Shown one piece after another: positions 11,920 through 32,394 of a stretch of DNA of 64,000 nt. Each line of letters starts with the position of its first letter. Positions within the stretch are counted from its first letter, which is position 1. A model generated the notes under the pieces. That model searched no databases, was not told where the DNA came from, and saw nothing but the letters and a program-made list of their open reading frames with translations. The translations under genes were made by a program, and so were the position numbers. The stretch is from Paenibacillus sp. FSL H7-0357 (GTDB lineage Bacteria; Bacillota; Bacilli; Paenibacillales; Paenibacillaceae): contig NZ_CP009241.1 of NCBI RefSeq assembly GCF_000758525.1, forward strand, positions 2,356,001 through 2,420,000, written 5' to 3'.

Positions 11920-11933
11920 AGGAGGTTTACTAT

Positions 11934-16149: not shown

Positions 16150-16169
16150 TTAACTGGAGGTTATCGAAA

Positions 16170-17453: not shown

Positions 17454-17489
17454 TACGTGGGGCCACAAGGCCCCTTAAAGGTGGTGAAT

Positions 17490-17795: not shown

Positions 17796-18079
17796 TGACG
17801 GATGCAGAACTGCTGATGCAGTGCAAAATCGGGCTGGGGATGCCCGCAGGCGGAGATGTTTTTGACGGCATACTTTTGCCGAAGTTGCTGGCCGTCAAGT
17901 CCTACATGGGCGGAGCTGGCGTGTCTGAAGAAGTCATGGCCGATGATGCGGCTCTTGGGGCTATCGTGGTCGGTGTGACGGACTTATACAATCTGAGCAG
18001 CGGAGATATTCAATTCTCCGCTGTTTTTCATCTGCTGCTGACGCAACTCGCCTGCCGTAGCTTGCCGAAGGTGACTTGA
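17795..18079 (+). CDS. Head-tail connector (gp6-like)
   Basis: 94 residues, all-helical pattern of gp6/YqbG-type adaptors (TDAELLMQCKIGLGMP..., then a C-terminal LLLTQLACRSLPK helix). In HK97-like phages this protein forms the first ring below the portal. Size and position right after the capsid block agree. The call is mainly by position and helical pattern. Confidence 0.65.
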   Translation: MTDAELLMQCKIGLGMPAGGDVFDGILLPKLLAVKSYMGGAGVSEEVMADDAALGAIVVGVTDLYNLSSGDIQFSAVFHLLLTQLACRSLPKVT

Positions 18080-18080
18080 T

Positions 18081-18425
18081 ATGTGGAAACCTGGAGTACA
18101 GCAGTTCAGCACACAGATCCGGGTACAGCACCGGCAGGAAACGAAGGTGAACGGTGCGCCAGATATCAGCTATGTTGATGCCGATATCCCCTTAGGTCTA
18201 TGTAACTGGAAGGGGCGCGGCGGCTCGGAGAGTGTGACGGCTGGGACAGTAGTTGTTGCGGACACTGCGGAGCTTACTATGTGGTATCGCCCGGACATAA
18301 CGGAAAAGACTCGCATGCTGCTGCATGATGATGTGAAACTCCCCTATGAGGTCACGAATGTCGAGAATGTGGAAATGCGGAATCAATTCATGATCGTCAA
18401 GGTCAAACGGGTGGTGAATGGCTAA
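18081..18425 (+). CDS. Head closure (head-tail joining) protein
   Basis: 114 residues, beta-rich. Begins with a QIRVQHRQETK-type strand and has the typical C-terminal pattern of SPP1 gp16/Phage_H_T_join proteins (DDVKLPYEVTNVENVEMRNQ followed by MIVKVKRV). It seals the connector after packaging. It lies 1 bp after the gp6-like gene and directly before the HK97 gp10-like gene, the canonical order. Confidence 0.7.
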   Translation: MWKPGVQQFSTQIRVQHRQETKVNGAPDISYVDADIPLGLCNWKGRGGSESVTAGTVVVADTAELTMWYRPDITEKTRMLLHDDVKLPYEVTNVENVEMRNQFMIVKVKRVVNG

Positions 18426-18854
18426 ATGGCACGAAGCCGCAGAGTGACCAACTCGCGTACTATCACCTTGGACGTGTCCGGCGTTGAGGATTACCTTGCT
18501 CGGGTGCAAGCAGCTGGCCGGAGCGTGGACGATGCTGTTAAGGCCGCACTGACCGAAAGCGCCGCACCGATCCAGACAGATATTAAGAAATGGGCTGAGA
18601 AGCATAAGCTGACCGGAACCACACTGGCCGGGGTAGATATCGCGGAACCGAAGCAGTTCGGCAATAACATTGTTGTCCAGGTCGGTGTTGATGATACCAA
18701 ATCGCCGGGGGCATGGCACTCCACTTTCGTGGAATACGGTACACCTACTCAACCAGCAGACCCCGGTATTCGGACAGCCTTCGAAAAGAATAAGAACAAG
18801 GTCAAGAAGATCCAGCGTGAAGTGCTGAAGCGGGAGGGGTTGCCGGTTGATTAA
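18426..18854 (+). CDS. HK97 gp10-like tail-joining protein
   Basis: 142 residues. Shows the family features: VSGVEDYLARVQAAGRSVDD near the start, PIQTDIKKWAEKHK, and the hallmark HSTFVEYGTPTQPADPGIRT before a basic C-terminal helix. It follows the head closure gene without a gap and overlaps the next gene by 8 bp. It probably helps to attach the tail tube to the head. Confidence 0.75.
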   Translation: MARSRRVTNSRTITLDVSGVEDYLARVQAAGRSVDDAVKAALTESAAPIQTDIKKWAEKHKLTGTTLAGVDIAEPKQFGNNIVVQVGVDDTKSPGAWHSTFVEYGTPTQPADPGIRTAFEKNKNKVKKIQREVLKREGLPVD

Positions 18855-19203
18855 CATCTATGAGTTGGCCTGTTCCACCCTGGAACAGTTGGGGCACGAT
18901 GTGCGGGAGCAAGGCACGTATGCCCCTAATGATGTGCTACCTGATAGCTTTGTAACCTATCAAGTGATTGACGACAGCCCCGCAGGACATGCGGACAACA
19001 AGCCTACATCTCTTGTATGGCGTGTTCAAGTAGTTTTGTATAGTAAGAGGCCCGCAATCAAACAAGGCGCTTCTAAGGCGATTAAGGCAGTCATGTTGGC
19101 GGCTGGGTTCCTGAGAGTTGGCGGGCGCGATCTACCGTTCCTGGAGGCGACAGGACACTACGGATATACCTGTGATTACAGGTTCTATGAAATGGAGGAA
19201 TGA
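18847..19203 (+). CDS. Tail terminator / completion protein
   Basis: 118 residues from a TTG start overlapping the previous gene. An alpha/beta pattern (LACSTLEQLG..., VTYQVIDDSPAG, WRVQVVLYSKRP, YTCDYRFYEMEE) matches small tail completion proteins that precede the major tail gene in siphophages. It is assumed to cap the tail tube. It overlaps the start of the major tail gene by 4 bp (ATGA). Confidence 0.65.
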   Translation: MINIYELACSTLEQLGHDVREQGTYAPNDVLPDSFVTYQVIDDSPAGHADNKPTSLVWRVQVVLYSKRPAIKQGASKAIKAVMLAAGFLRVGGRDLPFLEATGHYGYTCDYRFYEMEE

Positions 19204-20102
19204 ATGTGGAAAAGAAATATGGTGAATTTGTCGGAGTTGATAACCTGCACTTTGCCAAGGTCACGGATACAACGGACAGTTATACAGCAGAGGCTCCTAA
19301 GTATCTTGCACCGGCTGCAGAAATTTCAGCGGAAGCTGAAACCAGCAACACGCCGACTTACTATGACAACGTTCCGGGAAACAACTATGTATCTGAGGGT
19401 GTAACCACCCTGACGATTACGGTGTCCGGCATTCCGGCTTATCTGGCTGCGGAGCTGCTCGGCAAAGATTTTGACCCGGCAACCGGACGGCTGATCGACA
19501 GCGGCCAGCCCAATCCGCCAGATGTGGCAGTTGGATACCGTGCAAACATCGGCAGAGAAGATTATCGCTATACATGGTATCTCAAGGGCACATTTTCTGG
19601 GGGAGCGGAAGAGGCTGCGACTAAAACAGCGGATGTTGATATCCGCACTTATCAGTTGACCTTTACTGCCGTTGCAACCACTAAGCAGTTTGATGTTATG
19701 GGTGAGGACAAGCCTATCAAGAAGGTATCAGGTGATACGACACACGAAGCCTTTGATCCTACGGGCTGGTTTGCGCAAGTCCAGACCCCGGATAACTCCG
19801 GTGCGCCTGCCGCGCTAACATTTACCAGCGTCCCAGCTAATAATGCTACAAGCGTGGCCGTAGGGGCCAATATGGTTCTGACATTTGCGAACAAGCTTTC
19901 TTCATACTCGGCTGTGCTGCTTAATGGCAGCTTTGACGTTATTGCTTCGGCAATCACACTGGACTCCACAGGTAAAGTGCTAACGATTAACCCGAATGCA
20001 AACTTGGCAGCAGCGACAGAGTACGCGGTGATCATCAACGGGGCAAAGGATGTTTACGGCCAGACGCTGCCGCAGACGGTGATTAGCTTTACAACGGCAT
20101 AA
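19200..20102 (+). CDS. Major tail protein with C-terminal Ig-like domain
   Basis: 300 residues. Residues 1-195 are a phi13/TP901-1-type tail tube protein (VGVDNLHFAKVT, then GIPAYLAAELLGKDFD, and YRYTWYLKGTFSGG). Residues 205-300 form a bacterial Ig-like (Big_5/SbsA-type) domain with PANNATSVAVGANMVLTFAN and an ALTLDSTGKVL-like turn (AITLDSTGKVLTI). Such Ig domains decorate tail surfaces and may bind cell-surface carbohydrate. A weak GC-rich hairpin with a T-rich tail lies at 20111-20140. Confidence 0.85.
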   Translation: MNVEKKYGEFVGVDNLHFAKVTDTTDSYTAEAPKYLAPAAEISAEAETSNTPTYYDNVPGNNYVSEGVTTLTITVSGIPAYLAAELLGKDFDPATGRLIDSGQPNPPDVAVGYRANIGREDYRYTWYLKGTFSGGAEEAATKTADVDIRTYQLTFTAVATTKQFDVMGEDKPIKKVSGDTTHEAFDPTGWFAQVQTPDNSGAPAALTFTSVPANNATSVAVGANMVLTFANKLSSYSAVLLNGSFDVIASAITLDSTGKVLTINPNANLAAATEYAVIINGAKDVYGQTLPQTVISFTTA

Positions 20103-20158
20103 TTCAATTAAGGGGCGGAGCGATCCGTCCTATTTTATTTATCCAGGAGGCGGTTTTT

Positions 20159-20470
20159 TTGAAACCAGTAATTATTAATTTTTCGGATGAGCAGGGAGTT
20201 ACTACGAAGACATTCACCACATGTAGCCTTAAAACGGGAATGATGGATACGATTTTTGACATAGCGGAGCGGGCAGAGGGGTTCAGGACTGGGACACCGG
20301 ATGTGAAGAAAGTGCGTGAATTCTACAAAGATGTCAAAGCGGTCATTGTCGCGGCGTTCGGCAAGCAGTTCACCTATGACGAACTGAATGAAGGAGTTGA
20401 AACTGCTGAACTGATGGATGTATTTCAGAGCCTCTGCACAAACGTCATGAGCGGTATCAAAAAAAACTAA
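20159..20470 (+). CDS. Tail assembly chaperone, short form (gpG-like)
   Basis: 103 residues from a TTG start with GGAGG upstream. Its place between major tail protein and tape measure, its size and its helical content fit gpG-type chaperones. It stops at TAA 20468-20470, immediately after a slippery A-AAA-AAC heptamer. It should coat the tape measure protein during tail assembly together with the frameshifted long form. Confidence 0.75.
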   Translation: MKPVIINFSDEQGVTTKTFTTCSLKTGMMDTIFDIAERAEGFRTGTPDVKKVREFYKDVKAVIVAAFGKQFTYDELNEGVETAELMDVFQSLCTNVMSGIKKN

Positions 20471-20700
20471 GCCCGGGGGATCAACCGAAAGACGATTCCC
20501 CGGCTAGTTATCGTACAACACTGTTGAGCCTTAAGTACAACTTATCGAAAAATTTAAAATGGACGCTTCATGCGATTGATGAGACGGATTTTCATAATCT
20601 GCTGTCATTTCTCAACTTCAAACCGTCAGATGATCCTAACACTCGTGTTATCAATGGCAAGACCTATCGCCGCGCGAACACTGCGCCTAGCTGGATATAA
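20159..20700 (+). CDS. Tail assembly chaperone, long form by -1 frameshift (gpGT-like)
   Basis: Slipping -1 at A-AAA-AAC (20461-20467) continues the frame through 20468-20700, adding about 77 residues that begin LSPGDQPKDD and end RRANTAPSWI, with an in-frame TAA at 20698-20700. The extension contains a typical aromatic/hydrophobic gpT-like core (LHAIDETDFHNLLSFL). Tape measure starts 13 bp later. In siphophages, the gpG/gpGT ratio set by frameshifting is needed for tail assembly. Confidence 0.85.
20461..20503 (+). promoter_or_regulatory. Programmed -1 frameshift signal: slippery site and stem-loop
   Basis: Heptamer A-AAA-AAC in the zero frame at 20461-20467, a 5-nt spacer, then a 9-bp stem CCGGGGGAT/ATTCCCCGG (20473-20481 / 20495-20503, one G-U pair) with a 13-nt loop. 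All parts are in the canonical arrangement. Confidence 0.88.
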
Positions 20701-20712
20701 GGGGGCGAATAG

Positions 20713-23571
20713 ATGGCAGACAATACAAATGACATCGGCGGTCGCGTCAGTCTAGATACAACGGATTTTAAAACGAACATTGCCGCGCTGGATCGGCAAA
20801 TTAAGATTATCGACACCGGATTTCGGGCTGCGGCTGCTGGCATGGACGATTGGGGAGCGTCCCAGGACGGACTTGAGCAGCGGATTAGTGCCCTGAATGG
20901 TATTACGGACTTGCAGCGGCAGAAAGTGGCCAACCTGACCGCACAATATGAGCAAATTGTTGCAGAGCAGGGTGAAAGTAGCCGCGCAGCTCAAACATTA
21001 CAGATTGCAATCAACCGCGAGACGGAAGCGCTGAACCGGAACTTACAAGAAATAGGGAATGTTACAAGTTCACTTGAAGAACTACGCAACGGTGCGGATG
21101 ATGCTTCCGATCAGACAGGTGACTTGGCGGATGCCGCCGATGAATCTGCGGATTCACTGCGAGAAATGGGCGAAGCTGCTGCGGAAAAGGCGGCGCTTGG
21201 TATTGCCGCAATTGGCGCGGCAGCTATAGCGGCGGTAACTAGCCTGGTTAAATTCGGTGACGAGAGCAATAAGGCCATGAACCACCTTCAGGCGCAGACC
21301 GGGGCGACAGCGGAAGAAATGGAAGAATTCAGGTCTGTCGCAAATGATATTTATGGAGATAACTTCGGGGAATCCGTGGACGATATCGCAGATTCCATGG
21401 CGGCAATCAATCAGGTTACCAAGCAGACAGGCGATGAGCTCAAGGACACAACTGAAAATGCATTGCTCATGCGGGATGTATTCGGCTTTGAAGTAGCCGA
21501 CAGCATTAAAACGGTCAATACCCTAATGAATAATTTCGGCATCACGGCAGATGAAGCGTATACCTTAATCGCTCAAGGTACCCAAATGGGGGCCAATGCC
21601 AGCGGTGACCTCCTAGATATCATGAACGAGTTCGCGCCGCATTTTGCGCAACTGGGCCTTGATGCAAATGAATTTACGGACACCCTGATCCAAGGGGCAT
21701 CATCTGGCGCGTTTGAGATTGCAACTGTGGGGGATGCCGTCAAGGAATTCGGGATCATTACCCGTGAAGGCACGGATGATGCGCGGGCTGCACTCACAGA
21801 TATGGGCCTGGATGCATCTAAGCTGTTTGCAACCTTTTCCGCAGGCGGGCCTGAATCAGCAGCATCCTTTAACGAAGTTGTTGAGCGACTGGGTGCGATG
21901 AAAGACCCTATTGCCCAAAATGCGGCCGGAGTTGCACTCTTCGGTTCGATGTGGGAAGACCTAGGAGTTGAGGCAATCAAAGCGCTCGGAGATATCGACG
22001 ATAACGCCGATATGACCCGCGACACGCTTCAGCAACTAAATGATGTTCAATATAATGACATCGGATCGGCACTTGAAGGGATTAAGCGTACCCTTGTCTC
22101 TGAACTCGCTGTGCCTGTTAGTGAAGTGGTCATGCCTGCGGTCAATGATCTGCTTGATGTAATCACCAACATGGATTTCAGTCCTCTTGTAGCTGGCATG
22201 CAGTGGCTGGTGGACAATGCTGGTAGTGTGGCGGCAGGGCTTGCAGGCATCGGAGGTTCCATGATTACGATGCAGGCAGTACAAGCAGTTACAGCGATTG
22301 TAAATTCATACAAAGCTTTTAAGCTGGTTACTGAGGGGGCCACAATTGCCCAGTGGCTTATGAATGCGGCAATGTCCGCTAATCCAATAGGCCTTATTAT
22401 TGCAGCGATAGGCGGGCTGGTAGCTGGATTAATCGTACTGTGGCAAACCAATGATGGATTCAGGGATGCGGTCATTGGAGCATGGGAATCCATAAGGTCT
22501 GCTGGTGCTGCTGTTTGGGATTGGTTAGTTCAGGTATTTACAGTGGACATTCCAAGTGCGATTACGACAGTTACAGAATGGTTTGGTCAACTACCGGGAA
22601 AAATCTCCGCTGTGTTTACATCTGTAATAGATGGGATTAAACAATGGGGTACAGGCGTTTTATCCTGGGTAGCAACGGAGATTCCAAAAATAATCCAAAA
22701 TATTATTAAATTTTTCAGCGAACTTCCCACGAAAATCGGTTATGCCATGGGCTATGCACTCGGCACACTGATTAAGTGGGGGGCGGATGCACTAAATTGG
22801 ATAAATACCGAGGTACCGAAGTTAATTCAGAAGGTGGGAAATTTCTTTGCGGAACTTCCTGGTAAAATCGCGTCCGCTTTAACCACAGCAATAGGCGGTA
22901 TCAAGACATGGGGTATCAACGTAGGTACCTGGATCGCTACGGAAGTTCCAAAACTGATATCCAGCATCGTTAACTTTTTCATGGGGTTGCCTGGGAAAAT
23001 AGGCGCGGAGCTTAGTAAATCCTTTACTGAATTTACTAAATGGTCATCCAACCTCATTTCCACCGCAAAGGTTGAGATTCCAAAGGTAATTAGTGCTATC
23101 GTGGAATTCTTCGCAACGCTTCCTGGTAAAATGCTGGATATTGGCGAAAACATAGTCAAGGGGTTATGGGAAGGCATTAAGAACATGACCGGCTGGATCA
23201 AAGATAAGATATCTGACTTTGCTGGCGGTATCGTAGACGGCATGAAGGATGCGCTTGGAATCCACTCTCCATCCCGTGTCATGCGGGATCAAGTTGGTAT
23301 GATGGTCGGCGCAGGCATGGCTGAAGGGATTGCAGACAGCGCTCGACAGGTCAATGCAGCTATGCAGGATCTGAGCGGAAGTGTTACTGGAGTGCTTCCA
23401 GATATGAATGCTGGCGGGACGGTTAGTAAATCTGAAGTAACGAATACAATCAGCTTCGCGGATATGTTCCGGGGGGCTAATTTCACTGTTCGGAGTGACG
23501 ACGATTTGACGGTGCTAGGGCAATTGCTCGGCGGGCAAATCACTGGCGCTCTGCGCGGAGCGGGGGTGTAG
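20713..23571 (+). CDS. Tape measure protein
   Basis: 952 residues. An N-terminal coiled-coil region (to about residue 150) is followed by a hydrophobic Ala/Ile-rich segment near 160-180, the TP901-type domain (DESNKAMNHLQAQTGATAEE onward), hydrophobic helices near 510-580, and about five repeats of roughly 44 residues between 600 and 830. Each repeat contains a W..(E/D)(V/I)PK(L/V)I..I..FF..LPGKI pattern. The C-terminus has the LGIHSPSRVMRD motif common in tape measures. Its length sets tail length and it helps DNA entry at infection. Confidence 0.92.
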   Translation: MADNTNDIGGRVSLDTTDFKTNIAALDRQIKIIDTGFRAAAAGMDDWGASQDGLEQRISALNGITDLQRQKVANLTAQYEQIVAEQGESSRAAQTLQIAINRETEALNRNLQEIGNVTSSLEELRNGADDASDQTGDLADAADESADSLREMGEAAAEKAALGIAAIGAAAIAAVTSLVKFGDESNKAMNHLQAQTGATAEEMEEFRSVANDIYGDNFGESVDDIADSMAAINQVTKQTGDELKDTTENALLMRDVFGFEVADSIKTVNTLMNNFGITADEAYTLIAQGTQMGANASGDLLDIMNEFAPHFAQLGLDANEFTDTLIQGASSGAFEIATVGDAVKEFGIITREGTDDARAALTDMGLDASKLFATFSAGGPESAASFNEVVERLGAMKDPIAQNAAGVALFGSMWEDLGVEAIKALGDIDDNADMTRDTLQQLNDVQYNDIGSALEGIKRTLVSELAVPVSEVVMPAVNDLLDVITNMDFSPLVAGMQWLVDNAGSVAAGLAGIGGSMITMQAVQAVTAIVNSYKAFKLVTEGATIAQWLMNAAMSANPIGLIIAAIGGLVAGLIVLWQTNDGFRDAVIGAWESIRSAGAAVWDWLVQVFTVDIPSAITTVTEWFGQLPGKISAVFTSVIDGIKQWGTGVLSWVATEIPKIIQNIIKFFSELPTKIGYAMGYALGTLIKWGADALNWINTEVPKLIQKVGNFFAELPGKIASALTTAIGGIKTWGINVGTWIATEVPKLISSIVNFFMGLPGKIGAELSKSFTEFTKWSSNLISTAKVEIPKVISAIVEFFATLPGKMLDIGENIVKGLWEGIKNMTGWIKDKISDFAGGIVDGMKDALGIHSPSRVMRDQVGMMVGAGMAEGIADSARQVNAAMQDLSGSVTGVLPDMNAGGTVSKSEVTNTISFADMFRGANFTVRSDDDLTVLGQLLGGQITGALRGAGV

Positions 23572-23574
23572 CCA

Positions 23575-24381
23575 TTGAGCGGCGTTGTTGCATACTTGGG
23601 CGATAAGCGCCCGCAGGATTTAGGCCTGCAAACACTTCGGGAGTCACAGCGGCCAATCCTACCGCCGACAGTAGACCGGATATACACTGTTCCATACATG
23701 CATGGGGCGTATGACTTCGGATCAGACATGGGGCCGCGTTCTTTGCCTCTGGAGTGTGCGTTCATGGAGCGGAATTCCTACCAATTACAGCGGCGGGTGT
23801 CGGCACTAGCTGCTCATTTAGTCGATGGTGACGGCAGGCCGCGCACGATGTCCTTGATCTTCTCCAATCAGCCAGATCGTCATTACATGGTGCGATTATC
23901 CGGTCAATTACCTATTGATCGCATGGTTGGGTTAGGTAAATTTTCCTTGCCGATGGTAGCATATGACCCATTCGCCTATAGTATCTACGATTCAGATGAT
24001 ATCAATGTTGATTCACCGGTGCTGGTAGATACTGAAGTATCCGTTGATGCTGCTTATGAGTTTGCGGTAACTGGTCCGGTCACGCTGGTCGTTGATAATT
24101 TCGGCGCTTTGAATGTCAAACCAGTTATTGAGATTGCTGGAAGCTTCGGCACGCTCTCGCTGACCGTGGGTGGTGTGGTAACCACATATAATGCGGCCAT
24201 GTCAGGAACGCTGATTCTTGACTTCCAGCGAGGTACAGCGCGTATCGGTTCAACGAACTTGCTGCTAAACACTAATGCTAGGTTCGGCGCACTATCTCCA
24301 GGAGTATCTTCGGTTATAGTTGGTGGTACGGGCCTGAACTTCAGCATGTCCATTAAATTCAAAGCAAAGTATGCGGGGTGA
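23575..24381 (+). CDS. Distal tail protein (Dit)
   Basis: 268 residues from a TTG start 4 bp after the tape measure stop, with a G-rich site upstream. The N-terminal 140 residues show the Sipho_tail/Dit pattern (YTVPYMHGAYDFGSDMGPRS, then VGLGKFSLPMVAYDPFAYS). The C-terminal galectin-like part (about 160-268) is beta-rich (GPVTLVVDNFGALNVKPVIE). Dit forms the hub at the tail tip. Unusually, the next gene is a spike, with the Tal gene only after a further insert. Confidence 0.85.
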   Translation: MSGVVAYLGDKRPQDLGLQTLRESQRPILPPTVDRIYTVPYMHGAYDFGSDMGPRSLPLECAFMERNSYQLQRRVSALAAHLVDGDGRPRTMSLIFSNQPDRHYMVRLSGQLPIDRMVGLGKFSLPMVAYDPFAYSIYDSDDINVDSPVLVDTEVSVDAAYEFAVTGPVTLVVDNFGALNVKPVIEIAGSFGTLSLTVGGVVTTYNAAMSGTLILDFQRGTARIGSTNLLLNTNARFGALSPGVSSVIVGGTGLNFSMSIKFKAKYAG

Positions 24382-24386
24382 TAGCA

Positions 24387-26345
24387 ATGGCGAATATTGA
24401 ACAAATCAAGGGTGCGGACAATGGGAATCCTCCAGATAAACTATCTGAAGCATATCCCAAAATCAATCGCAGCTTAACAAACATGAATAACCAGGTCATA
24501 AATCATGAGGGCCGTTTGGGTACTGCGGAAGCAGCGGTCAGTAATCACGGTAGCCGGATTGCAGAGGCTGAGACAAAGCTTGTTAACCAGGATAACCGTA
24601 TAACGACCATTGTTGCGCACAACGGAGATGGAACGAAGGATACGGAGCTAATTGACGCTCGTGGAAATAAACCGATCCTATCTGCTCGACTGGATGCCAC
24701 TGATGCGCAGTTGGCGGATATTGCGAGTGACGCATCATTTTACGGGGCCGATCCTGGAAAAGGAGATAATACTGCGTCACTACAGTCAGCCCTCAATAAA
24801 GGCGGCACTGTCAATGTCACAAAGCCAGGGGATTACTACACAAGGACTTTGTACATCGGCAGCGACACCTCGTTATGCCTAGGTCAAGGAGTCAGACTGA
24901 TTCTGATCGGGGGTACAAGTGACTACCTTATTGTAAATAAGGGGGAAGTAGCGGAGCCAAAGTACCGAGACAAAAACATCTCCATCAATGGCGGGGAGTA
25001 TAATTATAATGGAGAAAACAATCCAATTACAGGCGCGTATTCCGCTGGATTATTCCCCGGACATGGCATCTTTCTGAACAAGGTAGACGGGGTGAAAGTA
25101 ACAAACATCGCAAAGGCAGGACGTGCGGTCAAATACGCATTCTTACTGGTGGATGTTACGAACGTTGTCATTGACAATGTCAATTTCGATAATGAGAGTG
25201 ACGGTTTTCACTTTCAAGCTCCTATTAAAAATATTCGAATATCGAATATCACCGGTTATACGGGCGATAACTGTCTTGGATTTACAACAGGGGATTATAG
25301 TACTTTTGTTGTTAGCGAGAACGGGGATGGCGAAAACATACTAATCGAAAACCTCTTTCTCGGAAGTGTTGACAAGCCTGTAAATGGTCCGATTAGGTTT
25401 GTGGGCGCTGGAAAGAGTGATTTGGGTTTTTATGACAATATCGAAATTAAAAATATTGTTGTTTACATGACGACACTTAATCCGGTCGTCGAATTCATGG
25501 GCGCAGATCAAGCGGTTGCAAATGATTATCTTAAGAGTACCCGGATTAAAAACGTTCAAATATCGAATGTGAAATGTTTGAGCGCAACAACATCTCGTGA
25601 TTTGATATCTGCTGCGGCGCGCGTGGACAACATGACAGTTAGCGACATGGAAGTGACCGCTACCCTACAGAACAAAATATTAACAGCAATCGGGACTGTA
25701 GGTAATCTGTATCTCAGAAACATCAAGTTTGAGGGTGGCGGAACTACGCGAGATTATGCCCAGCCGTTTTTCTACTTCGGTACAGAATGGTCTCAGTATA
25801 CCGTCAAAAATTTAACATTCGATAATTGCAGATTCGAAATTGCCTCGGGTACTGATTTTGTTTTTATTAAGTCTGTAAATAACTCAATTCAGCAATTAAA
25901 CATCTGCAATTCACTGATCAAGTTTGACTCAAACAAAGGGTACATGCTTGATTTCGATGGATCAAATAAGAGCACCTTAAACCCCGTTAACATAAGTAAT
26001 TCGACCATGACAGGGATCAAGAATAGAATAAAAAATAACTGCCATCTGTCGATTAACAATTGTCACGTCGATGCTGCGGGCTTTAAAATCGCTGATCTTG
26101 CAGGGGTGGGCATCTTAAGATTATTGGTCGCCTCAAGTAACTTTTCGTTCTCGGTTGATGGACTTACTGGCGCTGCTAAATTGTCCTACAATGGCACGTC
26201 CGCTGTTTGCAGCCATCCATTAAACCAATTAACACCGCAAAACGGGGACGTGTTTAACGTAATCTATGGGGCCTATGCTGGGATTTATCGACTTGGCGGC
26301 AGCAGCACCTTTTATCAATTGAGCCAGACTGCAATTACCGTTTGA
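24387..26345 (+). CDS. Tail spike with parallel beta-helix (polysaccharide-binding/degrading)
   Basis: 652 residues from ATG 24387. Residues 1-100 are a coiled-coil-like stalk (NHEGRLGTAEAAVSNHGSRI). From about 115 the SFYGADPGKGDNTASLQSAL motif marks the entry of a pectate-lyase-like right-handed beta-helix, with Asn- and Ile-rich rungs (VTNVVIDNVNFDNESDGFHF, IEIKNIVVYM) up to about residue 590, then a small C-terminal cap. Such spikes bind and often cleave surface glycans. The catalytic residues cannot be assigned. It is immediately followed by an acyltransferase cassette that could modify the same glycan. Confidence 0.8.
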   Translation: MANIEQIKGADNGNPPDKLSEAYPKINRSLTNMNNQVINHEGRLGTAEAAVSNHGSRIAEAETKLVNQDNRITTIVAHNGDGTKDTELIDARGNKPILSARLDATDAQLADIASDASFYGADPGKGDNTASLQSALNKGGTVNVTKPGDYYTRTLYIGSDTSLCLGQGVRLILIGGTSDYLIVNKGEVAEPKYRDKNISINGGEYNYNGENNPITGAYSAGLFPGHGIFLNKVDGVKVTNIAKAGRAVKYAFLLVDVTNVVIDNVNFDNESDGFHFQAPIKNIRISNITGYTGDNCLGFTTGDYSTFVVSENGDGENILIENLFLGSVDKPVNGPIRFVGAGKSDLGFYDNIEIKNIVVYMTTLNPVVEFMGADQAVANDYLKSTRIKNVQISNVKCLSATTSRDLISAAARVDNMTVSDMEVTATLQNKILTAIGTVGNLYLRNIKFEGGGTTRDYAQPFFYFGTEWSQYTVKNLTFDNCRFEIASGTDFVFIKSVNNSIQQLNICNSLIKFDSNKGYMLDFDGSNKSTLNPVNISNSTMTGIKNRIKNNCHLSINNCHVDAAGFKIADLAGVGILRLLVASSNFSFSVDGLTGAAKLSYNGTSAVCSHPLNQLTPQNGDVFNVIYGAYAGIYRLGGSSTFYQLSQTAITV

Positions 26346-26386
26346 CCGCTGTAGAAAAAAGTTGCATATCACATTTTATAACATCC

Positions 26387-26395
26387 TGATATACT
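26387..26395 (+). promoter_or_regulatory. Extended -10 promoter for the acyltransferase
   Basis: TGATATACT (26387-26395) is an extended -10 (TG-N-TATACT), 22 bp upstream of the acyltransferase ATG and its AGGAGGG site. No good -35 is needed for this class. It gives the gene its own expression within the late operon. Confidence 0.5.
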
Positions 26396-26417
26396 GTGGT
26401 ATTACAGGAGGGAAGTT

Positions 26418-27503
26418 ATGGAAAGGAATTATTCTTTAGATATTGCAAAATTTTTCGCTATTTTCTTTGTGATATGTGTGCATGTTCAACCATTTAGCGA
26501 TTACCAAAGTCAAGTTGGCTTTTGGCCTGGACTTTCTGCGACTATTGTGACATTTTCACGATTTGCCGTACCTCTGTTTTTTTGTATTTCTGGTTACTTA
26601 TTTGGGCAGAAAGTCCAGGAAGTTCAGAATCAAGGCAAGTACTTTAATAAATTCGTTAAGAAAAACTTGAAGATGTATTTTACTTGGTTGTTTTTATATT
26701 TTATGTTTGACTTGTCAGTAATCTTATTGAAATCCTATACAGAAAATTCATCCCTTTACCTCAATATTCTTAAGTACTCAGAAGAGTACTCGATCTGGAA
26801 GGTGCTTTATTTTGGCACAAATTCTACGGCATATCCATTGTGGTTTCTTCCGGCTTTAGTTTGGTCTGTTTCAATACTTTTCTTTTTTGTGAAAATTAAT
26901 AAAACAGGGCTATTACTTGTAATGAGTTTAGGTTTAAATGTCTTAGGGCAGTTTGGGCAGTCTTACTCCGGGTTAATAAGACTTCCCGTTGATACAAAGG
27001 ATGCCGTTTTCTTTGGTCTTTTTTACACCACGTTAGGGTTCTTTGCTTCTAAGCATGCTAGAGCCTTATCCAATAAAGTGAAAATTAGAAATCTACATTT
27101 AGTATTGATGGCAGCTGGTCTGTTCGGTATTCAGTTCTTAGAGAAGCAACTAACGGTAGATTGGCTAGGGGGGAATGGAGGGAATTATTATATGTCTACC
27201 ATACCGTTAACTGCTGTCCTTCTGCTACTAAGTATTCGTAATCACATTAAAACAAACACTCGATGTATAGTTAAAATCGGGCAGAATGCCTCTGGAATTT
27301 TTGTTACTCATAACCTTATCATTAATATTGTGTCTTTAATGGTATCGGTTTTAAAATTATCTTATATCCAAGAAACGTTTATATGGAATATAGTATTTGC
27401 ACCGGCAGTCTTACTCCTATCCCATTACTTTTATACAGTAATACAAATTACAAAAAATAGACTTTGGAGAGGTAATAGCTACTTGGACCATACTGCGCAC
27501 TAA
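26418..27503 (+). CDS. Membrane acyltransferase (acyltransferase-3 family), lysogenic conversion candidate
   Basis: 361 residues with about ten hydrophobic segments. The N-terminus has the acyltransferase-3 signature (LDIAKFFAIFFVICVHVQPF, with the key His in VHVQ) and an RFAVPLFFCISGY motif. The coding region is visibly more AT-rich than the flanking tail genes. It has its own extended -10 promoter and its own terminator, the layout of a phage 'moron'. It probably O-acylates a cell-wall or capsular glycan in the lysogen, altering the phage receptor and blocking superinfection. Substrate unknown. Confidence 0.8.
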   Translation: MERNYSLDIAKFFAIFFVICVHVQPFSDYQSQVGFWPGLSATIVTFSRFAVPLFFCISGYLFGQKVQEVQNQGKYFNKFVKKNLKMYFTWLFLYFMFDLSVILLKSYTENSSLYLNILKYSEEYSIWKVLYFGTNSTAYPLWFLPALVWSVSILFFFVKINKTGLLLVMSLGLNVLGQFGQSYSGLIRLPVDTKDAVFFGLFYTTLGFFASKHARALSNKVKIRNLHLVLMAAGLFGIQFLEKQLTVDWLGGNGGNYYMSTIPLTAVLLLLSIRNHIKTNTRCIVKIGQNASGIFVTHNLIINIVSLMVSVLKLSYIQETFIWNIVFAPAVLLLSHYFYTVIQITKNRLWRGNSYLDHTAH

Positions 27504-27516
27504 CTGAATATTCTGT

Positions 27517-27547
27517 AAGAGCTGCAGGATTACGCTGTGGCTCTTTT
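27517..27547 (+). terminator. Terminator of the acyltransferase cassette
   Basis: AAGAGCTGCAG (27517-27527) pairs with the CTGTGGCTCTT arm (27535-27545), with two G-U pairs, followed by a short T run. It closes the moron transcript before the Tal gene. Confidence 0.65.
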
Positions 27548-27568
27548 GTATGTAAAGGAGGGGCTACA

Positions 27569-29236
27569 TTGATTACTGTACTAAACCCATTGCTCCAACC
27601 GTTGGCCGTCATTGATCTGTACGACAACGACAGCATAGACGAGACAATCAACGGCGAGTATAAATTTAGCTTCACCACACTGATCGACCCAGATGGCAAA
27701 AGTGAATACCTGACAGACAGCAATCTGGCCGAAATAGAGGATCAGCTATTCAACATCGTCCATCATCGCCGCACGCGGGCCGGAGACGGATCTACACTGG
27801 TCGCCGTGGAGTGCGAACAGGTTAGTTATGATCTAGTGAAATATGAGTGGGCAGACGGTTTTGTTCATGCAGGAACACCGCTGCAACTGCTCACTATGGT
27901 ATTGGAAGGTACTGGATTCACTGTTGGTACCGTGGAGTTGAGCGGATTTATTTCCGTGAATCTGGCCGAGGAAAATATCAGCGCCCGCGCAATCCTGATG
28001 GAAATCGCGGTACAATCGAGCGGTGAACTGCGGTTTGATCGGTACAGCATATCGTTGCTGGTTCGTCGCGGGGCATTAAGGCCTGTCCGGTTCCAGTTGG
28101 GGAAGAACCTGAAGGGAATCGTCAAAGACGTAGACATTCGTTCCGGGGATCGTGTTACCGCCTACGAGATTGATGTGCTGGAGCTGAACAGCCTGCCAGA
28201 ATTTTACGGGCTGGAATATTTTGAGCTGGGCGACACGGTAGGGATAGGTGATCCTGAGCTTGGCATTGATGAGCAGCAGCGCATTGTCGGATATTCCTAC
28301 AGCCCGCGACGCCGGATTAACAGCAAAGTGACTATATCCAAGAAGATACCAGGGATCACGGATGCAGTAGTGAGCTTACGGAAGACAACGGTAGTGAAGG
28401 ATAAGGTTTACAACGGTACCCGGATCGGACCGGAAAATGGATTTGAAGCTATTCGGTCGGATAATATGGCTAGAACAGTTATGAATGCCACCGAAGGGAT
28501 CAAGATTCAGAAGGGAAACGGCAGTGGCTCCAGTTGGACAGATGTTATTTATTTAGATACAGAAGGCAATGCAGTGTTCTCCGGTAAGGTAACGGCGTCT
28601 ATTATACAGGGTTCAGAGATATTAGGCGGAACTATCATGATCGGCAGCGGGGACAATGCATTCCGTGCCAGCGACTGGGGCATTTGGTTAGGTGATGAAG
28701 CCTTTGCTGATGCTGATTTCAGTGTCACTCCTGCCGGGAAAATGAAGGCCGTGGACGCCGATTTTCAGGGAAGGATTACGGCTACAGACATTGAAGGTGG
28801 GGTGATAACTGGAACCAAGTACCAGACCTCAGATACACTCTGGCCGCGAGTGGTAATTGATCCGTCCAGCGTTGCCTTTGGAGTGTACGCGGACGAGCAT
28901 AACGGTATACTAATTCCTGCTTATGAAGATGGGATCAGTAAAATTAGATTTCTGGCAAATGGCGACGAATCTACAATTTACAATTCTCCAACGGCAGGAT
29001 TAGTTATATCGGGATTCACTGCAACAAGATTGGCAGGGCCTACTGTTCACCTTTCTCCTGCCGGAAATGTTTACATTCCGGCATGGTCTAGACTGTATAG
29101 TGACAACGAAGGAATGACTCTCCAAGACGTTATTGATAATATATATTCAGTTCTGAATGGTAAGGCGAATGTTTCACATTCACATACTGTTACGATTCCA
29201 CCCGGTTCTGCTGGCGGAACCTTCTCAGTCTCCTAA
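27569..29236 (+). CDS. Tail-associated lysin/hub protein (Tal, prophage endopeptidase-tail family)
   Basis: 555 residues from a TTG/ATT-type start region with AAGGAGG upstream. The N-terminal 320 residues match Tal hub proteins (LLQPLAVIDLYDNDSIDETI, then GEYKFSFTTL, and a FELGDTVGIGDPELGID segment). The C-terminal part (about 330-555) is a beta-rich fibre-like region with GKVTASIIQGSEILGGTI and DADFQGRITATDIEGG repeats and a His/Ser/Gly tail. It forms the tail tip below Dit and may carry a peptidase or fibre role. No clear peptidase motif is visible. Confidence 0.75.
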   Translation: MITVLNPLLQPLAVIDLYDNDSIDETINGEYKFSFTTLIDPDGKSEYLTDSNLAEIEDQLFNIVHHRRTRAGDGSTLVAVECEQVSYDLVKYEWADGFVHAGTPLQLLTMVLEGTGFTVGTVELSGFISVNLAEENISARAILMEIAVQSSGELRFDRYSISLLVRRGALRPVRFQLGKNLKGIVKDVDIRSGDRVTAYEIDVLELNSLPEFYGLEYFELGDTVGIGDPELGIDEQQRIVGYSYSPRRRINSKVTISKKIPGITDAVVSLRKTTVVKDKVYNGTRIGPENGFEAIRSDNMARTVMNATEGIKIQKGNGSGSSWTDVIYLDTEGNAVFSGKVTASIIQGSEILGGTIMIGSGDNAFRASDWGIWLGDEAFADADFSVTPAGKMKAVDADFQGRITATDIEGGVITGTKYQTSDTLWPRVVIDPSSVAFGVYADEHNGILIPAYEDGISKIRFLANGDESTIYNSPTAGLVISGFTATRLAGPTVHLSPAGNVYIPAWSRLYSDNEGMTLQDVIDNIYSVLNGKANVSHSHTVTIPPGSAGGTFSVS

Positions 29237-29277
29237 CATAATGGTATTATTAGGGAAACTGATAGGGGGTTATACGA

Positions 29278-29832
29278 GTGAAAAAATTCGTTACAGGATT
29301 GATTGTAGGTGTTCTATTATTTACAAGTGTTTCAGTATTTGCTGCACCAACCAGTTTGATAGGACAGAAGGTTCAGGGGCTATTTAGTATTGAAAAGAAT
29401 GGGACTAAGATAGCCGACGCAGTTATCATCAACGGTTCAACCTATGCACCTGTGAGAGCCTTGGCCGAAGTAACTGGTACGAATCTGAACGTGGAAGGGA
29501 AAAAAATTATTATGAGTGATAACGCTTCGGCGGCAGTTGATGTGCCTTCAACAAGCGGTAATGTTGTCACACTTAAAGAGCTTCAATCTAAAAGGTCTGA
29601 GTTAGTAGACTTAATATCGAAGAAAGAAACTCATGTGCTTGAGTATAAGGAAAATCAAGTTGTATTTTGGGAAACATTAATTAAAGAAAATCCTAATTCC
29701 ACAACTAAAACGCAATGGGAAAAATCATTGGCCGATGGAAATAAGCGTTTAGAAGAAATAAAATCAGAACTCACTTCTCTTCAACAGCAGCTTGCTGAAC
29801 TAGATGCTCAAATTGCCGATTATAAAAAATAA
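29278..29832 (+). CDS. Secreted protein with copper-amine-oxidase-N-like domain and coiled coil
   Basis: 184 residues from GTG 29278 (GGGGG upstream). A signal peptide (KKFVTGLIVGVLLFTSVSVFA) is followed by a stalk-like domain of the type named for copper amine oxidase N-terminus (ADAVIINGSTYAPVRALAEV, residues 50-85), then a long coiled coil (residues 95-184). Such stalk domains are common in Paenibacillus surface proteins. Finding one between the tail and lysis genes suggests a cargo gene acting at the envelope. An intrinsic-type hairpin follows at 29853-29870. Confidence 0.65.
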   Translation: MKKFVTGLIVGVLLFTSVSVFAAPTSLIGQKVQGLFSIEKNGTKIADAVIINGSTYAPVRALAEVTGTNLNVEGKKIIMSDNASAAVDVPSTSGNVVTLKELQSKRSELVDLISKKETHVLEYKENQVVFWETLIKENPNSTTKTQWEKSLADGNKRLEEIKSELTSLQQQLAELDAQIADYKK

Positions 29833-29852
29833 CATACTTTAACATTCAGGGT

Positions 29853-29876
29853 CTCGCCAACATTGGCGAGGCTCTT
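29853..29876 (+). terminator. Hairpin after the secreted protein gene
   Basis: CTCGCCA (29853-29859) pairs with TGGCGAG (29864-29870), followed by GCTCTTT. Likely a moderate terminator. Confidence 0.5.
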
Positions 29877-29898
29877 TCTGTTACCGGAGGGATAATTT

Positions 29899-30141
29899 AT
29901 GACAGTAGTAATCAGAAACAAGATGGCCGTGGAAATAGAGCCCACAGTGCCGGATATTTGCACCTTGATATCAGCGGCATCTGCTTATCATCGGAGCAGC
30001 GGCAATGAACTTCGGTTTCTTCAAGGGATTAGCGAATCTCTGAATGAACGGATTAAGGAGCTTCAACTGCCGCCCGCGAATCGCAGTAAAAAGGGATCTC
30101 ATGAAAGGAGGCGAGGCAAAAAAACTAATGCAGATAGATAA
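29899..30141 (+). CDS. Hypothetical phage protein before the lysis genes (80 residues)
   Basis: ATG with GGAGGG upstream. A helical central part (PDICTLISAASAYHRSSGNE) and a strongly basic tail (SKKGSHERRRGKKTNADR). No domain recognised. The stop overlaps a terminator-like hairpin. Confidence 0.45.
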   Translation: MTVVIRNKMAVEIEPTVPDICTLISAASAYHRSSGNELRFLQGISESLNERIKELQLPPANRSKKGSHERRRGKKTNADR

Positions 30142-30164
30142 CGCGCCTACGCAGGCGTGTTTTT
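30141..30164 (+). terminator. Intrinsic terminator before the lysis cassette
   Basis: ACGCGCCT (30141-30148) pairs with AGGCGTGT (30153-30160), followed by T's to 30164. It separates the upstream gene from XhlA. Confidence 0.6.
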
Positions 30165-30221
30165 ACTTTTCAGGGAGTTCATATGAGAGGGGGAAGGGGA
30201 ATGCCGGGAGGAGGAGGACCT

Positions 30222-30485
30222 GTGACTGCTGAGGATAAGCTTGTTGAAATTCAGATCATGCTAGCCCGAATGGAAAAGACGCTTGAAGCAGTGCCAACGC
30301 TGACAACAACCATCGAAGCTACTCGGGATTTAGCAAGGGAAGCCATGCAATCAACTAAATCGGCACATCACCGGTTGGATCGGATCGAAGACGGCCAGCG
30401 GTGGTTATGGCGTACTATCGGGGGGTCAATCATTACCGTTGTTATTGCTGCAATCATAGCAGCTATTAAACTTACTGGAGGTTAA
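30222..30485 (+). CDS. xhlA: Haemolysin XhlA-like lysis accessory protein
   Basis: 87 residues from GTG 30222, chosen because GGAGGAGGAGG lies 6 bp upstream; an upstream ATG at 30183 would translate that Gly-rich site. The N-terminal two-thirds is an amphipathic coiled coil (EIQIMLARMEKTLEAVPTLT ... HHRLDRIEDGQRWLWRT) and the C-terminus is one membrane helix (GGSIITVVIAAIIAAIKLTG). This is the XhlA layout. In PBSX, XhlA works with the holin and the endolysin in lysis. Confidence 0.8.
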   Translation: MTAEDKLVEIQIMLARMEKTLEAVPTLTTTIEATRDLAREAMQSTKSAHHRLDRIEDGQRWLWRTIGGSIITVVIAAIIAAIKLTGG

Positions 30486-30489
30486 GATC

Positions 30490-30750
30490 ATGGAATGGAA
30501 TGCAGTAGCTAATTTTATCAAGCCAGAATTGCTTATCGTCGTGGCGGTATGTTGGGTGGTCGGTTACATCCTTAAGCAGACGCCGTGGGTGCCGGACTGG
30601 ACGATCATTTATGTTGTCACACTGGTGGCTCTCTTTGCAGTCTGTTTCACACTGGGCTTTACACCTGAGAGCGTTCTTCAGGGCATTCTATGCGGAGCTG
30701 TCGCCGTATACGGAAATCAACTACTTAAGCAGGCCAAAAAGGGGGAGTGA
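30490..30750 (+). CDS. Phage holin
   Basis: 86 residues with three hydrophobic segments (LLIVVAVCWVVGYIL, WTIIYVVTLVALFAVCFTL, and a third ending near GAVAVYG) and a short Lys-rich cytoplasmic tail (LLKQAKKGE). Size and order (XhlA-holin-endolysin) fit. It forms the membrane lesion that releases the endolysin. The stop overlaps the endolysin start region (GTGA). Confidence 0.8.
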   Translation: MEWNAVANFIKPELLIVVAVCWVVGYILKQTPWVPDWTIIYVVTLVALFAVCFTLGFTPESVLQGILCGAVAVYGNQLLKQAKKGE

Positions 30751-30752
30751 CA

Positions 30753-31379
30753 GTGAGCCGTAAAATATCGCAAGTGGGAATTAACCTCATCAAGTCGTTT
30801 GAAGGATGCAGGTTGAAAGCCTATAAACCGGTACCGACCGAAGAATATTGGACCATCGGCTGGGGCCATTACGGCCCGGATATCAAGGCGGGCATGACCA
30901 TGACACAGGCTCAGGCAGACAGTATGCTGGTCGCCGACCTCGCTAAATACGAGGCATACGTCAACAACCCGGCGTATGTACCGGTCACAGCGCAGCTCAA
31001 TCAAAATCAATTTGATGCGCTGGTGAGCTTCTGCTATAACTGCGGCAGCGGTAGCTTAAAAAAGCTTTGCGCAGGCCGGACGATAGTGGAGATTGCTCAA
31101 AATATCACGAAGTACAACAAGGGCGGGGGTAATGTCCTGGCCGGGCTTGTACGCCGTCGCCAGGTGGAACTGGAATTATTCACTAAGGCCGCAGAGGCCA
31201 TCAAGGAGGACGACACTTTGGAATTAACAAACTATCAATGGACAACTTTACGCGCTCAAGTAAAGGCGTTACTGGATACAGGTACGATTAAGGATACGAC
31301 TTGGTTGGATAAGATCGACAGTAAGGAATTGACGACATCAGAGCTTGCTTGGCTGTCATTTATAGTTGCCAAAAAGTAA
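30753..31379 (+). CDS. Endolysin, lysozyme (GH24) with C-terminal binding region
   Basis: 208 residues (GTG 30753, or GTG 30747 which overlaps the holin stop; GGGGGAG upstream). The N-terminal 150 residues are a GH24 lysozyme: catalytic Glu in IKSFEGCRLKAY and the WTIGWGHYG motif, then FDALVSFCYNCGSGSL. The C-terminal 50 residues (LTNYQWTTLRAQVKALLDTG...) look like a small substrate-binding or accessory module. It hydrolyses peptidoglycan glycan strands at the end of the lytic cycle. Confidence 0.88.
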   Translation: MSRKISQVGINLIKSFEGCRLKAYKPVPTEEYWTIGWGHYGPDIKAGMTMTQAQADSMLVADLAKYEAYVNNPAYVPVTAQLNQNQFDALVSFCYNCGSGSLKKLCAGRTIVEIAQNITKYNKGGGNVLAGLVRRRQVELELFTKAAEAIKEDDTLELTNYQWTTLRAQVKALLDTGTIKDTTWLDKIDSKELTTSELAWLSFIVAKK

Positions 31380-31425
31380 GAGAAATGATAATCTAACTAC
31401 ATCAAAACCGGAAGCACCGGTCAAG

Positions 31426-31454
31426 AAGCCTCTGCCCAGCGCAGGGGCTTTTTT
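31426..31454 (+). terminator. Late-operon terminator
   Basis: AAGCCTCTGC (31426-31435) pairs with GCAGGGGCTT (31441-31450, one G-U), followed by T's. Ends late transcription after the endolysin. Confidence 0.8.
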
Positions 31455-31458
31455 CTTG

Positions 31459-31488
31459 TTGTATAAAGAACGTTTGTTCGCATATACT
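31459..31488 (+). promoter_or_regulatory. Second LexA (SOS) box within a promoter
   Basis: AGAACGTTTGTTCG at 31467-31480 has the GAAC-N4-GTTC core. It lies between a weak -35 TTGTAT (31459-31464) and -10 TATACT (31483-31488), 18 bp apart. It controls the 131-residue gene at 31509. Confidence 0.65.
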
Positions 31489-31508
31489 TAAGACAGGAGG
31501 CGAAAGAT

Positions 31509-31904
31509 ATGAACAATTCAACGGGCAGTATGCTGTCAAATGATGAGAGGGAAATGGTTCGGGACTTAATACTGCTCCCTTACATAGACACAATGGTCAG
31601 CAAGAGTCTGAAAGAGGTCGAACGATCCGGCAATGTGCTCAGCAGATCCTACATAATAGCTGGTCGATATATCCAAAAGCGAATTATTCAGGAGGTTTAC
31701 CAGCTGCGTCAGGAATTGAAAAAGCGAAATATAAAAGTGGTCGAGGATATTCAGGATGATTTTATTTCATATAATATGATCTACTTTCGAGGGTACCAAG
31801 AGCGTTTTGGTTTAACCCGGGATGTAATGCGTACCGAAATCAGCCTAAGGTTGACACACTATACATCAGAGCTTGGAGGAGTATTGAAAAATCATTTTAA
31901 ATAA
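31509..31904 (+). CDS. SOS-controlled protein of unknown function at the prophage right end
   Basis: 131 residues with AGGAGG before the ATG. All-helical, charged product (DEREMVRDLILLPYIDTMVS, SYIIAGRYIQKRIIQEVYQL) without a known motif. It is the last gene before the attachment junction, with its own LexA-box promoter and terminator-like repeat, so it can be expressed in the lysogen on DNA damage. It may influence induction, excision or host SOS physiology. Family not recognised. Confidence 0.6.
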   Translation: MNNSTGSMLSNDEREMVRDLILLPYIDTMVSKSLKEVERSGNVLSRSYIIAGRYIQKRIIQEVYQLRQELKKRNIKVVEDIQDDFISYNMIYFRGYQERFGLTRDVMRTEISLRLTHYTSELGGVLKNHFK

Positions 31905-31928
31905 AACATATCCAAACACATTTTAACG

Positions 31929-31978
31929 ACAAGGTTTTGTTTTATAATAAAAACACCGATTTAGTGAACCTTGTTTTT
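31929..31978 (+). terminator. Nested inverted repeat with T run near the attachment junction
   Basis: ACAAGGTT (31929-31936) pairs with AACCTTGT (31967-31974) and encloses TGTTTT/AAAACA (31938-31943 / 31950-31955). Five T's follow the outer arm. It can act as a terminator for the SOS gene, or be an integrase arm site given its place 40 bp from the junction. Confidence 0.45.
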
Positions 31979-31998
31979 AAGTGGAACATGACAGACAA

Positions 31999-32024
31999 CA
32001 ACAACGTACGTAAGAGTTTGCCCA
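31999..32024. other. Right attachment junction (attR) of the prophage in cotJC
   Basis: cotJC coding similarity starts abruptly at GAG 32014 (EFAHLEM...), with a stop codon TAA directly before it in frame. Everything to the left is phage. The shared core is probably around AAGAGTTTGCC. The matching left site must lie before base 1. Confidence 0.65.
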
Positions 32025-32394
32025 TCTTGAGATGATTGCCACCATGATCTACAAGCTGACCAAGGACGCCTCTATCTGTGAGCTGGAAGCGGCAGGCCTT
32101 GGCCCGAATTATGCGACACGGGATCATGCCTTGTTCTACAACAATGCGGCGGGTGTCCCGTTCACCACGACCTATATCGCAGCCAAAGGCGATCCGCTGG
32201 CCGATCTCTATGAAGACATCGCCGCTGAGGAGAAAGCCCGGGCTACATACCAATGGCTGATTGATATGACTGATGACGTGGATCTGCAGGACAGCCTGAA
32301 ATTCCTGCGGGAGCGGGAGATTATTCATGCAATCCGGTTCAAGGAGTCGGTGCAGATATTGATTGATGAGCGGGGGAAGAAGAAGGTGTTTTAA
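32014..32394 (+). pseudogene. cotJC: 3' part of cotJC, spore coat manganese-catalase-like protein
   Basis: 126 codons matching the C-terminal two-thirds of CotJC (usual length about 189): EFAHLEMIATMIYKL, HALFYNNAAGVPF, DLYEDIAAEEKARATYQWL and LREREIIHAIRF. Metal ligands of the manganese catalase fold in EFAHLE and REREIIH remain, but about 63 N-terminal residues are absent, displaced by the prophage. ATG 32032 gives an in-frame internal start but no ribosome binding site. If excision is precise the full gene would be restored, as in skin/sigK. Terminator at 32434-32470. Confidence 0.85.

Follow-up and report, generated by a model that had tools for sequence, protein, structure and literature searches.

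Spore genes can be split by mobile DNA, and those named as such in the available text of two reports are sigK, spsM, spoVFB, gerE, and yabG (PMC5595907, PMC10747680). In Bacillus subtilis, excision of the prophage SPbeta rebuilds spsM in the mother cell, and its timing is set by the factor SprB, which is YotN; in the sprB promoter the sigma-E/K -10 is perfect and the -35 imperfect, as given in the sections accessible to us (PMC4191935). Excision by serine phage integrases requires an additional factor, according to the consulted part of PMC5595907. Elements of this kind vary in behavior: the skin element of B. subtilis is described, in the portion seen of PMC13141910, as making no phage particles, and yin, in yabG of C. 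botulinum, is reported in the available text to be excised at every time point (PMC10747680). As far as the accessible text of the open-access literature goes, no report of a split and rebuilt cotJC was found, the nearest case being the prophage phi027 beside a CotJC-like gene.

A prophage within cotJC

Within the window (the whole stretch of 64,000 nucleotides that was analyzed, C1:2356001-2420000 of the 7.69-Mb single-contig genome of a soil Paenibacillus, G000), phage sequence gives way to cotJC at position 32014, exact to the base. From there to 32394 the DNA encodes CotJC from EFAHLEM to the stop, the 120-aa open reading frame (ORF) at 32032-32394 matches PF05067 (E = 3.3e-33), and a TAA stands in frame immediately 5' of the gene part (T*EFAHLEM). 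A preliminary description of this DNA had placed the change from phage to CotJC frame at this very point, with an in-frame stop just before it, and had found the N-terminal third of the protein missing from the window; both observations are confirmed. The missing part is in the genome. The 5' piece (C1:2353799-2354002, 67 aa, PF05067, E = 3.4e-24) comes right after cotJA and cotJB, and these two genes with the first 64 codons of cotJC occupy C1:2353229-2353990, approximately 2 kb left of the window; unjoined, the frame closes after residue 67. The same description had proposed reading leftward of the window for the cotJC 5' part and an integrase, both of which are present, and for an excisionase: a serine integrase gene is there, but no nameable recombination directionality factor was found in the window's own phage.

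The two ends have the dinucleotide GA in common (C1:2353988-2353989, equal to L005 7988-7989, and window 32014-32015), and the distance from GA to GA, 34,026 bp, is the length of the prophage. The core had been guessed to lie near AAGAGTTTGCC, which is right for the window end, but only GA is shared with the other. Joined in silico at GA, the pieces give 189 open codons and an unbroken CotJC, reading ...DISTEEFAHLEM.... The coding region of a sporulation gene is interrupted, with residues 1-64 and 65-189 on opposite sides of the prophage, and exact removal at the shared core restores the frame, as is expected of a sporulation-gene-intervening prophage. Chance is not a sufficient account of the junction, because the joined frame is open over 189 codons and the breakpoint recurs in 66 of 80 integrase-related loci (the best 80 of 128 relatives). 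What was described as a possibly excisable element within cotJC is borne out in part, as a site-specific insertion with the 5' half beside a large serine integrase and a clean in-frame join; its excision in sporulating cells is predicted.

Table 1. Features of the prophage and of the divided cotJC gene; positions refer to the window unless preceded by C1
Feature	Position	Strand	Support or remark
Prophage, right 32 kb (of 34,026 bp)	1..32015		left 2 kb with integrase outside window
DnaD-like helicase loader	3923..4894	+	phrog_7498, E 2.2e-73
DnaB-like replicative helicase	5134..6540	+	phrog_19, E 1.6e-118
Large terminase	12530..14239	+	phrog_9, E 4.3e-108
Portal protein	14181..15524	+	phrog_12, E 8e-54
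Head maturation protease	15511..16149	+	phrog_80, E 8.1e-40
Major head protein	16170..17453	+	phrog_10, E 4.1e-43
Major tail protein	19200..20102	+	phrog_88, E 6.8e-31
Tail tape measure protein	20713..23571	+	phrog_1272, E 7.6e-161
Holin	30183..30485	+	phrog_689, E 6e-18
Endolysin	30747..31379	+	phrog_7, E 4.8e-52
attR (phage arm, GA crossover at 32014-32015, cotJC arm)	31989..32040		inverted-repeat match
cotJC 3' part, from GA of codon 64 to stop	32014..32394	+	PF05067; in-frame join with C1:2353799-2353989
attL	C1:2353988		outside window
Large serine integrase, 528 aa	C1:2354025-2355611	-	PF00239 + PF07508

The prophage has all the gene classes of a phage, with families of PHROGs for head, tail, packaging, lysis, and replication (Table 1). 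A 195-aa protein encoded at window 9658-10245, inside this phage that integrates by a serine integrase, matches phrog_216 (E = 3.2e-49), which we take to be a phage integrase family of tyrosine type. In Paenibacillus sp. VTT E-133291 (G038), a homologous phage sits at the same cotJC codon, with an integrase 86% identical and about 78% DNA identity across a 12.5-kb stretch. Between the two phages, dN/dS is 0.03-0.27 for the genes in which it is computable, and the synonymous divergence differs by gene, being usually lower than in the host flanks, where it is near saturation. Both phages look functional and mosaic, and they were probably acquired separately.

The crossover site

Around GA, the phage arms of the two ends match as an inverted repeat at 14 of 25 positions in the window's phage and at 21 in that of G038. 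Among 22 related loci with both cotJC pieces, GA is the right-hand core in every one, and the inverted repeats formed by the element arms agree at 18 of 25 positions in the median (6.8 when shuffled). Sliding the center along these loci gives a single peak at GA, with a median of 15 of 20, and values of 3-8 at shifts of 1-8 bases either way. A search of viral_contigs for an intact attP of the exact pattern found none, and one of 390 gut-family genomes has an intact attP as predicted, deviating from the pattern at a single base. This site, at C13:45646-45682 (L200) of G271, a genome also with a split cotJC, would represent either tandem elements or an assembled excised circle. In the Paenibacillus phage phiIBB_P123 (L195, KF010834), the arm that directly follows the integrase gene, reading TTGATAACACCATGGTACAGAAGA on the opposite strand, closely resembles that of the gut cotJC elements, so that this isolated phage may also target cotJC.

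Integrase and a candidate directionality factor

The integrase gene adjoins the cotJC 5' half at the prophage end, and its product is related to YokA of SPbeta (phmmer, E = 1.4e-48 to PDB 9dxh), the structures of which have been solved alone and as a fusion with YotN. An ORF with a LytTR domain is divergent from the integrase gene in the window's phage and is a conserved neighbor in G038. One CATAGTGT stands upstream of the integrase gene in the window's genome and is altered in G038; a sporulation promoter at this place was considered and found unconvincing.

In 52 of the 80 loci (best 80 of 128 integrase relatives), the integrase gene is closely preceded, on its own strand, by an ORF of 47 aa whose size and position are like those of a directionality factor. 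Its product has no family match at the usual cut-offs and no relative in PDB, and its structure model is weak (pLDDT 72.8, pTM 0.36). The sigma-E/K-like -10 motif CATAnnnT precedes this ORF in 44 of 49 gut elements, against a shuffled mean of 2.9, and stands 16-18 nt from the start in 42 of those 44; the -35 is weak. In the same 49 full upstream regions, which are not independent because the sequences are related, a sigma-A-like promoter occurs in 23 and the hairpin CAAGAC..GTCTTG in 29. The 47-aa protein is a likely candidate for the directionality factor of these elements. A scan for a common -35 upstream of cotJC genes gave mixed boxes, and this idea was dropped. In G106, a partial serine recombinase (L145 48-353) lies immediately upstream of the cotJC 5' part and may mark a further element in the cotJ operon.

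Recurrence at the same codon

Querying public genomes with the integrase gave 128 confirmed relatives, the best 80 of which were kept. Pieces of cotJC lie at 68 of these 80 loci, the other 12 having no cotJC match; 66 of the 68 are broken at the window's codon, while L120 is broken near residue 76 and L137 is at a contig end. The cotJC loci extend from Paenibacillus to gut Clostridia and are mostly MAGs of the latter, and the 22 gut loci with both pieces have an inter-piece distance of 3.3-6.7 kb. The integrase usually adjoins the 5' part, and in L064, L066, L084, and L125 the 3' part. In G258, two integrases of the window's family stand at the same cotJC break, one per side (L184 408-2012; L074), perhaps belonging to two tandem elements.

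Frame lengths were counted in 102 of 116 matching gut-family genomes and 83 of 105 matching genomes of the class, leaving out rows with a partial 5' piece and remote paralogues. The 102 full 5' matches of the gut-family sample comprise 58 frames of at least 180 aa, 33 of at most 100, and 11 between; in the class sample, 62 of 83 have at least 175 aa, 18 at most 103, and 3 lie between. Some short frames in both samples are explained by contig ends.

Each of the 100 genomes in the genus sample has a match to the cotJC 5' part, and the open frame is at most 138 aa in 8. The short frames at the window's codon are those of G000, P. albidus (G002), and G038; others are broken near residue 76 (G015, G036) and near residue 123 (G035, G097). 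P. lacisoli (L063, G665) has the same break as the window, with the pieces about 50 kb apart on one contig. In G042 (L055 3500-3600), the eighth genome with a short frame, the frame breaks a few bases from the GA core with no element, which could be a scar, a mutation, or a sequencing error.

Other break positions and multiple elements

The pattern of breaks around cotJC in other spore formers is a more surprising result than the window's own split. Six further positions in the gene are also interrupted, chiefly by recombinases of other lineages, and in gut Clostridia such breaks lie near residues 35, 101, 117, and 136. Other large serine recombinases adjoin these breaks, nine of which (residues 35, 76, 101, 117, and 136) have PF00239 and PF07508. 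In a tree of 42 proteins, recombinases group by site with support of at least 96/91, three each for residues 35 and 136 and two each for residues 76, 101, and 123; that of residue 117 is a single long branch, and the program warned that some deep joins are possibly false. A strict rule of one lineage per site does not hold, as the Thermoflavimicrobium integrase (L120), which is of the window's lineage, sits near residue 76. The element at residue 76 in L046 (G015 C1:2386001-2404000) measures 14.5 kb and has no obvious phage genes by ORF reading, and the large ORFs beside its recombinase resemble a putative type I restriction system.

Some genes are broken more than once. Two breaks lie on one contig in G108 and G111, and in the gut genome G258 cotJC is in four pieces, one contig having residues 1-65 and a second having residues 62-102, 98-136, and 134-191, which means at least three interruptions. 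It should be noted that such cases need care singly because the genomes are MAGs. At least seven positions within about 190 codons, multiple breaks, and several serine-recombinase lineages are seen in the sequences, and the carriers range in size from mini-elements of 3 kb to phages of 34 kb or longer. The question of whether spore formers in general offer cotJC as a landing pad, and whether the genes in three or four pieces would all be joined in the mother cell to give one protein, is evenly poised; the joining itself is what we infer.

Copies, decay, and divergence

A whole-genome search of G000 with PF05067 gave four matches and no intact CotJC; two of the matches are the cotJC pieces, and the other two are parts of a longer Mn-catalase elsewhere. 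Two findings had been named as telling against an interrupted gene, the absence of a 5' fragment from the left prophage end and another intact cotJC; the fragment is in place, no intact gene was found by this search, and the reading is refuted by neither. The second Mn-catalase gene (C1:3418500-3419313, L006) is of the long kind and has a broken frame. Elsewhere, P. albidus has an intact full-length cotJC besides the split one. In 22 gut genomes, CotJC is nowhere covered over its full length by a close match, and five have a remote paralogue of 169-211 aa. Among 28 further genomes, one (G283) has a full-length copy, six yielded the 5' piece alone, and a frame of 183 aa lies at the start of a contig in G281; two of six other genomes (G668, G669) have full-length and split copies.

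To the right of the window's gene, debris of the cotJC 3' end lies at 34132-34194 and 38975-39073, one piece after TetR and ketopantoate-reductase-like genes, and may be traces of earlier insertions or rearrangements. The stretch at 32274-34121 is 96.4% identical over 1850 bases to contig C37 of P. albidus (cotJC 3' end, TetR, ApbA), while the DNA around it matches at only 75-81%; judged by this difference, it is a cassette recently shared with P. albidus.

The pieces of cotJC have low dN/dS in pair after pair. Since synonymous divergence is often lower in the integrases than in the adjoining pieces, these low values are no evidence of selection while the gene is split, and insertions may be recent. 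By the same comparison, the elements move between hosts faster than cotJC diverges, and vertical inheritance of the element is unsupported: four genomes looked vertical on the 5' piece, and the sole pair with a 3' piece, G264/G265, disagreed, with proportions of synonymous differences of 0.45 for the 3' piece and 0.19 for the integrase. Turnover is also suggested by G216 and G107, because their cotJC pieces are near-identical but their integrases clearly different.

No stop was found in the aligned 3' part in any of 35 related loci, and the 5' part has a frame break in 2 of 54 (L069, L113), which rules out the idea of no decay at all. Together, the stop-free 3' parts and the rarity of 5' breaks lean toward a gene that is still used, short of proof. 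In approximately ten more gut-family genomes (for example, G116, G166, G206, and G223), cotJC matches overlap in two frames near residue 30, and the one inspected (L113, from G116) has a frame break.

Proposed mechanism and alternatives

A temperate phage has the host spore-coat gene cotJC as its attachment site, and the crossover made by its large serine integrase falls on the GA of the second Glu codon in TEEFAHLEM. Insertion leaves CotJC residues 1-64 at one end of the 34-kb prophage and the rest at the other, as the sequence and its relatives show, and in silico reversal at the same GA restores the 189-codon cotJC. Most likely, a small directionality factor from the sporulating mother cell would turn the integrase to excision, in the way of SPbeta and spsM, and the lysogen would thereby rebuild CotJC in the coat-making cell, the chromosome of which is not inherited, with the forespore retaining the prophage. 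The structural claim is firm, and the structure and reversibility of the prophage come close to certainty on the sequences at hand; the developmental claim is likely, if unproven, with excision in the mother cell reasonably probable. The statement as a whole is probable. It is favored by the 5' piece and integrase at the far end, the 189-codon join, and a full phage gene set with low dN/dS; by the same break in G038, P. albidus, P. lacisoli, and 66 of the 80 loci (best 80 of 128), with att arms centered on GA; by the lack of an intact CotJC in G000, 35 of 35 stop-free 3' parts, and an SPbeta-related integrase; and by the 47-aa ORF in 52 of the 80 loci (best 80 of 128), with a sigma-E/K-like -10 in 44 of 49. 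It is weakened because the window's phage shows neither a factor nor a clear mother-cell promoter and CotJC may be dispensable, because fast movement of the elements means that intact pieces may partly reflect recent insertion, and because of the full-length copies in P. albidus, G283, G668, and G669, the 5' breaks in 2 of 54, and the 5' piece alone in 6 of 28.

The alternative that survives best is an ordinary temperate phage that uses a dispensable coat gene as its att site and is excised only on induction, the CotJC-less lysogens tolerating the loss. Such a phage would have functional-looking, mosaic genes and no visible sporulation promoter, as here, and the integrase family also stands at the 12 loci of 80 without a cotJC match (best 80 of 128). 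Little effect is reported for the loss of CotJC-like proteins: in the parts available, a review considers the catalase activity of CotJC apparently unimportant for coat assembly (PMC3533761), and C. difficile mutants in two CotJC-like genes had no significant coat defect (PMC11222575). Yet known elements at such sites are, by the available accounts, excised in development (PMC5595907, PMC10747680, PMC4191935), the site is kept from Paenibacillus to gut Clostridia, and the 35 aligned 3' parts are free of stops even in multiply broken genes; this alternative is rather unlikely. Excision might instead be real but random or tied to growth phase, with cells that have rebuilt cotJC supplying the function, as the turnover suggested by G216 and G107 would allow. 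Against it, cotJ should be expressed in no cell but the mother cell. In the available text, yin, excised at all times (PMC10747680), provides a precedent, but serine phage integrases require an extra factor (PMC5595907), and such excision is improbable. Finally, a dead cotJC or a misjoin is scarcely credible: the 3'-end debris indicates that the locus was rearranged and many relatives are fragmentary MAGs, but the genome is a single contig, the joined frame is open, and the same junction occurs in independent genomes, both named isolates and MAGs.

If excision in the mother cell is the correct reading, cotJC would join the short list of spore genes rebuilt by DNA excision, and a probably active phage and the mini-elements of gut bacteria would share a single integrase family and attachment site, the number of elements in this one gene forming a natural series from zero to three. 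It would become testable why mobile DNA gathers in mother-cell genes, whether multiple elements are excised in a set order, and whether they affect the spore coat of gut bacteria. With one or more such elements splitting it in related bacteria, many from animal guts, cotJC lends itself to the study of how genes may be put back together at the DNA level in spore formation.

Comparison with known systems

The closest counterpart is SPbeta in spsM of B. subtilis, likewise a phage inserted in a spore-envelope gene, whose large serine recombinase belongs to the family of the cotJC integrase. The cotJC prophage differs from it in its target and in that neither an SprB-like factor nor a mother-cell promoter for it was found; the analogy is structurally well supported, and excision in sporulating mother cells would be its developmental side. 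The skin element in sigK is also a serine recombinase element splitting a mother-cell gene, by the available text of PMC5025042 and PMC5595907, but its gene encodes a sigma factor, whereas cotJC encodes a coat protein and is split by a full phage gene set. The elements vfbin in spoVFB, gin in gerE, and yin in yabG, described in the accessible parts of PMC5595907 and PMC10747680 as serine-recombinase elements in spore genes, prophage-like or not, have target genes other than cotJC. Like gin, the gut cotJC mini-elements have no obvious phage gene set, but gin, as described there, has three recombinases and 28.6 kb compared with their 3.3-6.7 kb. The prophage phi027 of C. difficile R20291 lies directly beside a CotJC-like coat gene (PMC11222575, PMC12122855), but in the text available it is described as adjacent and at most altering expression, not as splitting and rebuilding the gene, and is set apart by that description. 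The nif elements of heterocysts, as far as the accessible part of PMC4874684 tells, resemble the multiple cotJC elements in that several occur per gene (four in nifD of Rivularia sp. PCC 7116) and in a terminal cell type, but they belong to cyanobacteria, other genes, and heterocysts. Were its pieces joined in the mother cell, the multi-piece cotJC would be the gut-microbe counterpart of these multi-element nif genes.
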